From NCBI GenBank assembly GCA_019059635.1, contig JAGVRJ010000011.1, positions 558,001-622,000 of the forward strand: DNA of 64,000 bases, in the 5' to 3' direction. A program made the position numbers and the translations under genes. The DNA is from Proales similis. Taxonomy: Eukaryota > Rotifera > Eurotatoria > Ploima > Proalidae. The notes beneath the pieces are model-generated. The model was not told where the DNA came from. It was given only the letters and a program-made list of their open reading frames with translations, and did not search any database. Positions 43,685-52,667 of this stretch are shown in pieces. Each line of letters begins with the position of its first letter. Positions within the stretch are counted from its first letter, which is position 1.

Positions 43685-44937
43685 CTAAAATATACAAGCT
43701 GCCATGTTTGGCTTAGAATTGAAATGATCGAAGGCTTGAAAAGCGCCAAATACAGGGTCTCCCAAGAGCAAATCACAGTGGCTGTTTGAATCAATCGACT
43801 CGGGCTCTGTTGCAGGCGATCGGATCTCAAAATCTTGGCCCAGTTGAACGAGCTCATCGACCAGATTGTTCAAGCTTTGTAAATCGTTCTCTCTCAAGTC
43901 ACACAAAACCAATGGCCCTTCCTCACCGGTGGCAGCTTGTTTATATGATGGAATATTGTCGTTGCCCAACTGGCTCAAATCTTCCATGTTGGCTGCGGGA
44001 GAGCTACTCACGCAATCTTGAAGGATCTCTTCCAAACTGATTGGCAGCTCATGCTCGGCTGATAAATCGAGATCAAGAGCAAGAGGCGGAAAATCAACGC
44101 ATTGTTCTTCGGCTTCATAAAAGACGCTCGTCGCGTCAAGGCCATACTGGACTTGATTGCCAACGAGCTGTGCCGACTCAGGATCGGCTGCAACTTGTTG
44201 AGCATCTTTTGAAGCTTCTGATGAGCTTCGACTGCGTTCAGGCGACTGATTCCAAGAGAAGCCAGATGAACTCGCTTCTTGAAGGTCGCATGATCCGGTT
44301 GAACTTGCTTCGTCAAGCTCATGCAGAATATTGTCAGAACCAAGAGTAATTGTCTCAATCTCTGAATCGCTAACGGCTGCTTCTTCTGCTGAGAAACATT
44401 AGAGAATGCTGCTGATTCGTCGACCATTAGCAATGCAGAGTTTTGACAGTTGACACTTGATTTCGACAGTCTGCTCGTCGCTCGACTGCTTTCGTGATTT
44501 TTCTTAAACTCAAGGAGTTTGCGATTTTCTCTAAGCAGGACGTGTGCTTTTTCCTTTAACAGCTGGTTTTCCTTGGCAAGTCGTTCATTTCTTTCTCTCA
44601 AACTTTCGACCATTTCTTCCAGCTCCTCCATTTTGGCCTTTTTGCGGTCTCGGGCCGATTGAGCCGCGATTCTGTTTTTCAACTTGCGCCTCATAAGCTT
44701 CTCTTCAGACGAGAGGTGTGTAAGTCTTTGACGCTTGCGCTTTGGCTGTTCCAGTTCGTCCCCTTTAGTCGCATGCTTTTGACTGGTAGCAATGAACTCG
44801 CACGAGCTCTCTGCTTCACTGTCACTCATGTTTGACGATTGACTGAAATCGAAATCCATTTGAGAATGAGGTGGCGAGCCAGACGCCTGCGAGCCCAGCT
44901 TGATGGTTTCTCCGTTTTTCAAATTGACCAGAATCAT
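43685..44937 (-). CDS. XBP1: XBP1, unfolded-protein-response bZIP factor with IRE1-spliced mRNA
   Basis: Read as genomic, the frame from the ATG at 44937 ends at 44008, giving XBP1u of 309 residues. Removing the 23-nt IRE1 intron (44411-44389) shifts to a second frame ending at 43685, giving XBP1s of 409 residues. The bZIP spans residues about 82-146, with basic region MRRKLKNRIAAQSARDRKKA and leucines in heptads. The XBP1s-only part is long and acidic (LALDLDLSAEHELP, ISLEEILQDC, NNLVDELVQLG), as expected for a transactivation domain. The XBP1u-only part has a hydrophobic stretch (LRQLLLVLTIFCMSL) and a tail containing YQPSMSCQSVW. XBP1s activates ER chaperone, ERAD and lipid genes. No conventional intron is needed. 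An ERSE and a TATA box lie just upstream. Confidence 0.95.
44389..44411 (-). other. XBP1: IRE1-type unconventional intron of XBP1, 23 nt
   Basis: The 5' site is a 7-nt loop CAGCAGC (44414-44408) closed by GAAT/ATTC (4 bp). The 3' site is a 7-nt loop CAGCAGA (44391-44385) closed by a 7-bp stem with one G-U pair (44398-44392 with 44384-44378). Both loops fit CNG|CNG with cleavage after the third base. Excision removes 23 nt, a length of 3n+2, which moves the ribosome into the long downstream frame. There are no GT-AG ends, as expected for IRE1 cleavage and RtcB ligation. Drosophila and C. elegans xbp1 introns are also 23 nt; vertebrate ones are 26. Confidence 0.92.
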
Positions 44938-45077: not shown

Positions 45078-45431
45078 GCAGTGTAATATTACTCATTCGC
45101 ATAATTTGAAGCTACTTATGACCAGGAATGCGCATATTGCGTTGAATATGTAAAAATACGACTCAAGGCGCGTGCATCTAGTCCTCAAGCATTAAGTTTC
45201 AAGGGAAGCTGAGTCGCTTTCGCTGCCTTCAACTCGGGATTTTGTGATTTAATAAAGTCCAAACGAACCGAGAACTTTTGAGCAAAGATATCACTGCTCA
45301 GCTTATCATAAGCTTATCATATTTACTATGTTTAACCAAAAATCGACACAGATGGGTTAGAACAAGGGCGATATTTCAAAGGTTCATCTAGATCTCACTG
45401 CACTGAATGACTGCCATGACATGAGCAGGAT

Positions 45432-50690: not shown

Positions 50691-52667
50691 ATGGCAAGCA
50701 GCAGCAGCAGCACGCACTCGAATAACAGATTACAGTCACAGCAGGCAGCCATCTACACGGGCAGTCGCGCCTCGTCGCCTTCAGCTCGTCTCTCTCCGTC
50801 AAACATCAAGCGGGAGGCAGCCACCGACGGCTCGCCCGCTTCCTCCACCTCTTCTCACTCCTCGATCGGAAATTTGCATCAATTGGCCAGCTTTGGCTCT
50901 GACGAGTCAGAAGCGAAAAACATGTCGAGCAGCATGAATCACAAGTCACTAGAGATGGAGCACAAGGCTCTTGATTCAGACACATACGAGAACATGGGCT
51001 ACAAGCCCATGCGCGACTTTTATCCGGCCGAAATGGCCGTTCAATCGTACGGCATGGGCCATCAGGTCAATCAAGGATACCAATCCAACTTGCCGTTTTT
51101 GCATCAGCACCAGTCGCATCAAATGGCTCACCACCTTCCTCTGGCTGCTCCGTTCCATCCAAGTCACAGCACGAATTCGTTCGGCAAGCCCATGGGACAG
51201 TGCATGGTCGAGCCGAGCATGCCGCACTGGTCAAACAGCTCCGGAATGTATCTAAACAATTCGTACATGCCACAACAGCTAATCATTCCGGCTCCAAGTC
51301 CGCAAGCCGCATCCACGCCAAACTCAAACCTTCACGCAATGACTACGTGCAGCTCAGCGATGAAAAGCAACTCGTCGAGCTCTTCCTCAAGCTCTAGCTC
51401 TCCCTCCTTGAACCAATGGCATTTTATGAACCCGACCTCAATGCCCCATCAGCAACTCCAACAGCCCCAACAGCCGCAGCAGCAGCAGCAGCTCATTCCT
51501 CCTTCAAGTCATCTACAGTCACAGACGACTCATGTCGGCCAAGGCCACTATACGCAGCAGCAACAGCAGTATCACTTTAACGCAATCATGGAGCATCCGA
51601 TGGCTCCTCACGGCAGCATGTTAAACGCGTCCGGATTCAAGAACGTAAACGACTCGTCTTCGTCCACGTCTTCTTCGTCGTCCATTTCTTCGATGCCTGC
51701 GCACAAAGAATTGGCCAACATGAAAAGCTACTCGACACACGAGAGCGCTGTTGTCGAAGGCGGCTTCGGCTCAGGCGACTACTCGCACGAGTCGGAGGAA
51801 GACGAATCGTCGATAAACACCGACGATCTGGAGAATTTCGCCAAACAATTCAAACAGCGCAGAATCAAGCTTGGATTCACACAAGCAGACGTTGGCCTCG
51901 CGCTTGGCACCCTTTATGGCAATGTGTTCAGTCAAACGACCATTTGCAGATTCGAGGCGCTGCAGCTAAGCTTCAAGAACATGTGCAAACTGAAACCGCT
52001 ATTGTCAAAATGGCTGGAAGAGGCCGACTCGACCAACGGTTCTCCGGCCAACATGGACAAGATCGCCGCGCAAGGACGAAAACGAAAGAAGAGAACGAGC
52101 ATCGAGCAAACAGTCAAAGGCGCACTGGAGACTCATTTTCAAAAGAATTCAAAACCAAGCGCGCAGGAGATCAGCAACTTGGCCGACTATTTGCAGCTAG
52201 AGAAAGAAGTGGTCCGAGTTTGGTTTTGCAATCGACGCCAAAAGGAGAAGAGAATGACGCCGAACGGCGAGTTTATGCCCAACGACGAGTCGCTGAACGG
52301 CGAAGACTCGTTCGACTCGGCCGATCAGACCAACAAGGACTATTATGGCTCGAGCAGATACAACCCTAATCAGCACATGGCCGGCTCGCAGCAATCAGCG
52401 CCAAACTCATCAGGCCAGGCGGGAATGTTTGATAGCAGCGCAGCTTACGGAATCATGCCCTCGGGCCAATCGACAATGCTCCAGTCCCAAATGCATTCGC
52501 AGCCGGCTCATCAAATCGCACAGCACGCACCTCAAATGCTTGTGGGCCATCATCAGACTTTGGGCTCCAATTTGAATGATGCCAACAAATATATGCAGAT
52601 GAGGCGGCAAGTCTCGCCCAACCCGATCATGAGCCATGAGAGACATTCGCCGCTGTACGCGAGATAA
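50691..52667 (+). CDS. POU3F: POU class 3 homeobox transcription factor, intronless coding region
   Basis: Single-exon frame of 658 residues. The POU-specific domain (about 376-450: [51 protein letters not shown]) and the POU homeodomain (about 462-520: [30 protein letters not shown]) are nearly identical to vertebrate Brn-1/2/4 and Drosophila Vvl. The short linker and the homeodomain sequence identify class III. The long N-terminus is low in complexity, with Ser, His/Met and Gln (poly-Gln near residue 260) stretches. Class III POU factors bind octamer DNA and control neural, epidermal and tracheal fates. Vertebrate POU3F genes are also intronless. A splice-acceptor-like TTTTTAG lies just upstream of the ATG. 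Confidence 0.97.

Follow-up and report, generated by a model that had tools for sequence, protein, structure and literature searches.

Within the window, which is the whole stretch of 64,000 nt of Proales similis DNA that was analysed, a bZIP gene on the minus strand can be read in two overlapping frames. The predicted RNA module that connects these frames lies inside the coding region, and the features of the locus are given below.

44008..44937, minus strand: XBP1u frame (unspliced), 309 aa, from the ATG at 44937 to the stop at 44008, with the bZIP at residues about 77-138
44412..44937, minus strand: exon 1, 526 nt, coding for the bZIP
44404..44418, minus strand: 5' hairpin with the 4-bp stem GAAT/ATTC and the loop CAGCAGC; predicted cut between 44412 and 44411, directly after loop base 3
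44389..44411, minus strand: predicted unconventional intron of 23 nt, CAGCATTCTCTAATGTTTCTCAG
44378..44398, minus strand: 3' hairpin with a 7-bp stem and the loop CAGCAGA; predicted cut between 44389 and 44388
44330..44470, minus strand: extended closing stem enclosing both hairpins, from folding; the match to RF04247 spans 44440-44360
43685..44388, minus strand: exon 2 in the spliced frame, coding for the acidic XBP1s C-terminus, with the stop TAG at 43687-43685
44011..44388, minus strand: the 126 codons of the overlap in the unspliced frame, including the HR2-like segment LRQLLLVLTIFCMSL and the C-terminal hydrophobic block ALIFRLLLLISI

The XBP1u frame is uninterrupted and needs no spliceosomal intron, and the twin loops come after residue 175. 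Pfam assigns the bZIP through PF07716 and PF00170, both above the cut-off. Among the matches listed (120 of 400), the homologues that bear species names are XBP1, while many others are nameless and several are called 'hypothetical protein'; the best species-named one is from the rotifer Brachionus calyciflorus. One match, P0037, is labelled maleate cis-trans isomerase, yet it has both the bZIP and the XBP1 junction. A DNA search of the genome assembly (32,716,893 bases in 15 contigs) returned no second copy of the gene. A search for the marker COX1 gave no hit.

Some further elements surround the gene. An upstream ORF of two codons (ATG GCC TAA) at 44958-44950 on the minus strand precedes the XBP1 start by 21 nt; a second upstream ORF, of 48 codons, begins at 45096 in frame with it. 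A tRNA-Asn (GTT) at 45515-45442, on the same strand, precedes the XBP1 start codon by about 500 nt. On the plus strand, a POU-homeodomain gene occupies 50691-52667 of the window as one uninterrupted frame of 658 aa.

The earlier note on this DNA had described two hairpins with 7-nt loops, closed by stems of 4 bp and 7 bp and placed 23 nt apart, and this description is exact on the minus strand. The loops CAGCAGC (44414-44408) and CAGCAGA (44391-44385) are offset by 23 nt. Stem 1 pairs 44415-44418 with 44407-44404 (T-A, A-T, A-T, G-C; 4 bp), and stem 2 pairs 44392-44398 with 44384-44378 (T-A, C-G, T-A, T-A, T-G, G-C, T-A; 7 bp). A CNGNNGN heptaloop on a stem of about five pairs is the IRE1 consensus (PMC3149027, excerpt), and the cuts were predicted with the position rule for IRE1 given in the excerpt of PMC4891664. 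As the note had stated, cuts after the third loop base delete 44411-44389, which is 23 nt, and join the bZIP frame to a second open frame; its figure of 234 codons for that frame is correct when the junction codon is counted. The removal turns the 309-aa bZIP frame into one of 409 aa (XBP1s). Apart from the two loops of the module, no CNGNNGN loop in the 1252-nt ORF has a stem of 4 bp or more, and excision between the two yields the correct frame. Across both strands of the window, only one pair of CNGCNGN loops spaced 20-30 nt apart has stems of 4 bp or more, and 200 first-order Markov strands of 64 kb gave a mean of 0.005 such pairs per strand.

The predicted fold depends on the length of the context. 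In the 45-nt excerpt 44420-44376, where the note had expected the two hairpins, they are absent from the best structure, and they were not obtained in a 56-nt excerpt either (z 0.16); excerpts of 45-56 nt have folding energies no better than those of shuffles. With at least 81 nt, RNAfold predicts one closing stem that carries both hairpins (five contexts, 81-1252 nt). In all five, stem 1 pairs with probabilities of 0.82-0.86 and stem 2 with 0.55-0.92, and the hairpin probabilities stay constant across contexts because the closing stem pairs at 0.93-1.0 at the five positions checked. The 141-nt element 44470-44330, the boundaries of which were picked by hand, folds at -47.1 kcal/mol with z -4.22, and 0 of 200 shuffles were as good. 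When the ORF was scanned evenly (56 windows of 141 nt, 30 shuffles each), the best z was -2.94, at 44477-44337, and six downstream windows were nearly as good with z from -2.7 to -2.1.

The Rfam family of the Hac1/Xbp1 intron, RF04247, aligns over all of its positions (1-72 of 72) to 44440-44360 with 29.4 bits. This score is under the gathering threshold of 41, which is a curator's cut-off rather than a biological defining feature, and corresponds to an E-value of 0.003 for 1 kb or 0.19 for the 64-kb window. A genome-wide Rfam search returned no match, and no control match either, which makes it uninformative. The structures of Hac1/Xbp1 introns were reportedly the subject of a study by Hooks and Griffiths-Jones in 2011.

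We also examined the junction in the homologues. Of the 120 listed, 49 have the vertebrate junction, 62 fit our spacing pattern and 9 were left unparsed. The pattern admitted 23 or 26 nt only, and the lengths it gives are inferred from proteins rather than DNA; on this basis, and among the matches listed, the implied spacing is 26 nt in 56 of the 62 and 23 nt in the remaining 6.

The genome also encodes the enzymes for such a reaction. The IRE1 nuclease domain has a single match in the genome (PF06479, 4.3e-42), the cytoplasmic kinase/RNase part matches chains named IRE1 in the PDB with 501 bits, and the stretch RNKKHHYRELP, which we take to hold the catalytic residues, is identical to that of the human protein P0197. 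In the IRE1 gene at L012:1211-3637 (minus strand), the cytoplasmic part shares one frame, open for 949 codons, with a portion of the luminal side. In a tree of 26 sequences based on the C-terminal 470 residues (25 picked from the 120 matches listed, plus the IRE1 from the Proales genome), the Proales IRE1 groups with five relatives (100/100), apart from the 20 others; 14 of these 20 are named, and the tree includes no named rotifer. RtcB, on contig C1, matches chains in the PDB named RNA-splicing ligase RtcB homolog with 835.8 bits over 425 aa, and an archease gene is present. The genome also has a second, divergent RtcB-family protein of 398 aa in one frame at L011:1432-2628 (C13:473777-474808), with 160 bits to PF01139. 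It gives only a weak match among solved structures, and a narrow pattern scan of prokaryote genomes turned up one relative, in a Clostridia MAG, at 29% identity. Taken with the bZIP and the XBP1 homologues, the junction motif and the end-to-end though sub-threshold RF04247 alignment, the genes for IRE1, RtcB and archease bear out the note's assignment of the gene as an XBP1 with an IRE1-type architecture.

The two frames were compared along exon 2. In the 126-codon overlap, neither the unspliced nor the spliced frame contains a stop, whereas the third frame contains 12. Codon usage, measured against six window ORFs that were assumed to be genes (of five scanned with Pfam, three are supported), scores +0.174 for the unspliced frame and -0.028 for the spliced frame in the overlap. 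Past the stop of the unspliced frame, the spliced frame remains open for 106 codons with a score of +0.152, while the other two frames have 3 and 9 stops. Among the 120 matches listed, none spans more than 41% of the spliced protein. The tail of XBP1s shows no detectable similarity to the Brachionus protein (448 of 1000 shuffles reach the score) and no clear similarity to vertebrate XBP1 C-termini, for which the score was reached by 35/500 and 33/500 shuffles with turtles, 82/500 with Xenopus and 223/500 with Latimeria. The predicted Brachionus calyciflorus protein, P0003, retains the unspliced junction and still ends in a long, acidic tail, possibly because its gene model contains an invented intron that skips the IRE1 site.

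Three other explanations of these data were weighed. The bZIP frame could be linked to the long second frame by a spliceosomal intron rather than by IRE1, and indeed, when donors are taken from 44500 to 44381, the XBP1s stop can be reached through 63 GT..AG joins of 30-299 nt. However, none of the 63 has any of the donors checked (GTAAG, GTGAG, GTAAA, GTATG), and the twin hairpins and the conserved junction motif would go unused, which makes this origin extremely improbable. We give equally little credence to the idea that the module is a chance arrangement within a bZIP gene. Local folds of 45-56 nt that do no better than shuffles would fit that idea, but it is contradicted by the homologues and has to contend with the expectation of 0.005 per 64-kb strand and with the agreement of XBP1 homology, position and frame.

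The hairpins could also be present while splicing has been lost or become constitutive, so that the animal works with one product only, either XBP1u or XBP1s. An XBP1s tail without detectable conservation is what such a history might leave behind, yet IRE1 keeps an intact nuclease stretch, RtcB and archease are likewise intact, both frames are open in the overlap where the third is broken 12 times, and the spliced frame is open and codon-biased past the unspliced stop. We therefore regard this alternative as very unlikely, if slightly less so than the other two. Against a switch by IRE1 we counted the sub-threshold Rfam score, the empty genome-wide Rfam search and the folds of short excerpts, and further the negative codon score of the spliced frame in the overlap, the lack of clear similarity between the XBP1s tail and other XBP1 C-termini, and the 4-bp 5' stem. 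With these points included, we are highly confident that the locus is a monogonont rotifer's XBP1 gene, in which XBP1u would be switched to XBP1s through cuts by IRE1 and joining by RtcB at the 23-nt intron. The module is a canonical XBP1 intron of the IRE1/RtcB type, that is, a known control system in a little-studied animal.

How far the unspliced frame is constrained was measured with 5000 synonymous recodings of the S protein, which followed the codon usage of the six window ORFs. The unspliced frame remained open in 537 of the 5000 recodings, and because of this an open frame of 126 codons is little evidence when taken alone. The hydrophobic features of its product are far rarer. The HR2-like segment, with a 15-aa mean hydropathy of 1.95, was matched in 2 of 5000 recodings, and the hydropathy of 2.73 in the C-terminal block was reached by 1 of 5000. 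Against a profile of the tails of 45 relatives the Proales tail scores a low 10.1 bits, which 1 of the 4989 scored recodings reached. The HR2-like hydrophobic segment is thus kept in the unspliced frame beyond what the spliced frame imposes.

The 45 tails are the non-redundant set from the 62 parsed among the 120 homologues listed; P0003 is the only one with a species name, and the others presumably belong to rotifers as well. By hydropathy cut-offs, and among the matches listed, the HR2-like segment is found in 30 of the 45 and the hydrophobic C-terminal block in 38 of the 45. A KLK-TL-KL block is also common to the relatives' tails.

The Proales tail resembles the human arrest peptide (YQP...CQ..W), with a raw alignment score of 32 that was reached by 0 of 5000 recodings, although this resemblance had been spotted before it was tested. 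With the arrest peptides of turtle and bird the score is 19, which 1274/5000 and 1520/5000 recodings reached, and YQP occurs in 0 of the 45 relatives' tails. Because the likeness is absent for turtle and bird, YQP is not found among the relatives and the motif was seen before the test, we judge that the likeness to the human peptide is probably due to chance. A different reading is that XBP1u of the rotifer type carries a conserved module of three parts, namely HR2, a KLK-TL-KL block of amphipathic character and, just ahead of the stop, a hydrophobic block. The last of the three might serve as a distinct element for pausing or membrane contact, encoded over the activation domain of XBP1s. We offer this tentatively and consider it somewhat doubtful. 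As part of the same three-part reading, the pre-stop element could conceivably occupy the position that the arrest peptide has in vertebrates while being unlike it in sequence, a suggestion that we hold with no greater assurance.

The sequence, the frames, the predicted fold, the enzyme genes and the constraint on the unspliced frame are established here. From these we infer cutting, ligation, stress dependence, membrane targeting and activation in Proales similis, and the switch would most likely run as it does in vertebrates and fly. In unstressed cells, the unspliced mRNA would be translated into XBP1u (309 aa), whose HR2-like segment would draw the translating mRNA to the ER membrane. Under ER stress, activated IRE1 would cut both hairpins after the third loop base, and RtcB would ligate the exon ends with the loss of 23 nt. 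The shifted frame would then give XBP1s (409 aa) and supply the acidic activation domain.

These results place the IRE1-XBP1 switch, together with dual-frame coding, in a compact rotifer genome in which XBP1 and most of IRE1 are single uninterrupted frames. A literature search of titles and abstract openings found no study of XBP1 splicing in rotifers. Specialists would expect the switch itself, and the comparative value lies in the unspliced frame. The hydrophobic C-terminus of XBP1u, common to many relatives, is less familiar and offers an alternative to the arrest peptide of vertebrates that can be tested.

The note had compared the intron with those of fly and worm at 23 nt and of vertebrates at 26 nt. 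The worm XBP1 intron is 23 nt long. The excerpt of PMC4528330 agrees on 23 nt for Drosophila Xbp1, and that of PMC5435141 on 26 nt for mammalian XBP1. HR2 and its role are known for vertebrates and conserved in Drosophila, and loss of HR2 together with the C-terminus lowers splicing but does not abolish it, according to the excerpt of PMC4138184; the arrest peptide in vertebrate XBP1 is described in PMC6624018. The two hairpins and the outer stem align with RF04247 over its full length, with a score below 41. As in yeast HAC1 and plant bZIP60, a bZIP mRNA carries twin hairpins of the kind cleaved by IRE1 (PMC4891664, excerpt), whereas yeast HAC1 differs in its ligase, Trl1 (same excerpt), and in being targeted by a 3' UTR element (PMC4138184, excerpt). 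The rotifer gene shares with Drosophila Xbp1 a 23-nt intron, a frame shift, overlapping unspliced and spliced frames and HR2 in the unspliced product (excerpts of PMC4528330 and PMC4138184). Compared by description, it departs from the fly gene in having about 100 residues between its HR2-like segment and the stop, and a hydrophobic block near the C-terminus. With vertebrate XBP1 it shares the bZIP, the ...ESA junction, an HR2-like segment after the intron and a long spliced frame, whereas its intron has 23 nt instead of 26 nt and an arrest peptide of the vertebrate kind is not convincingly recognizable in it.
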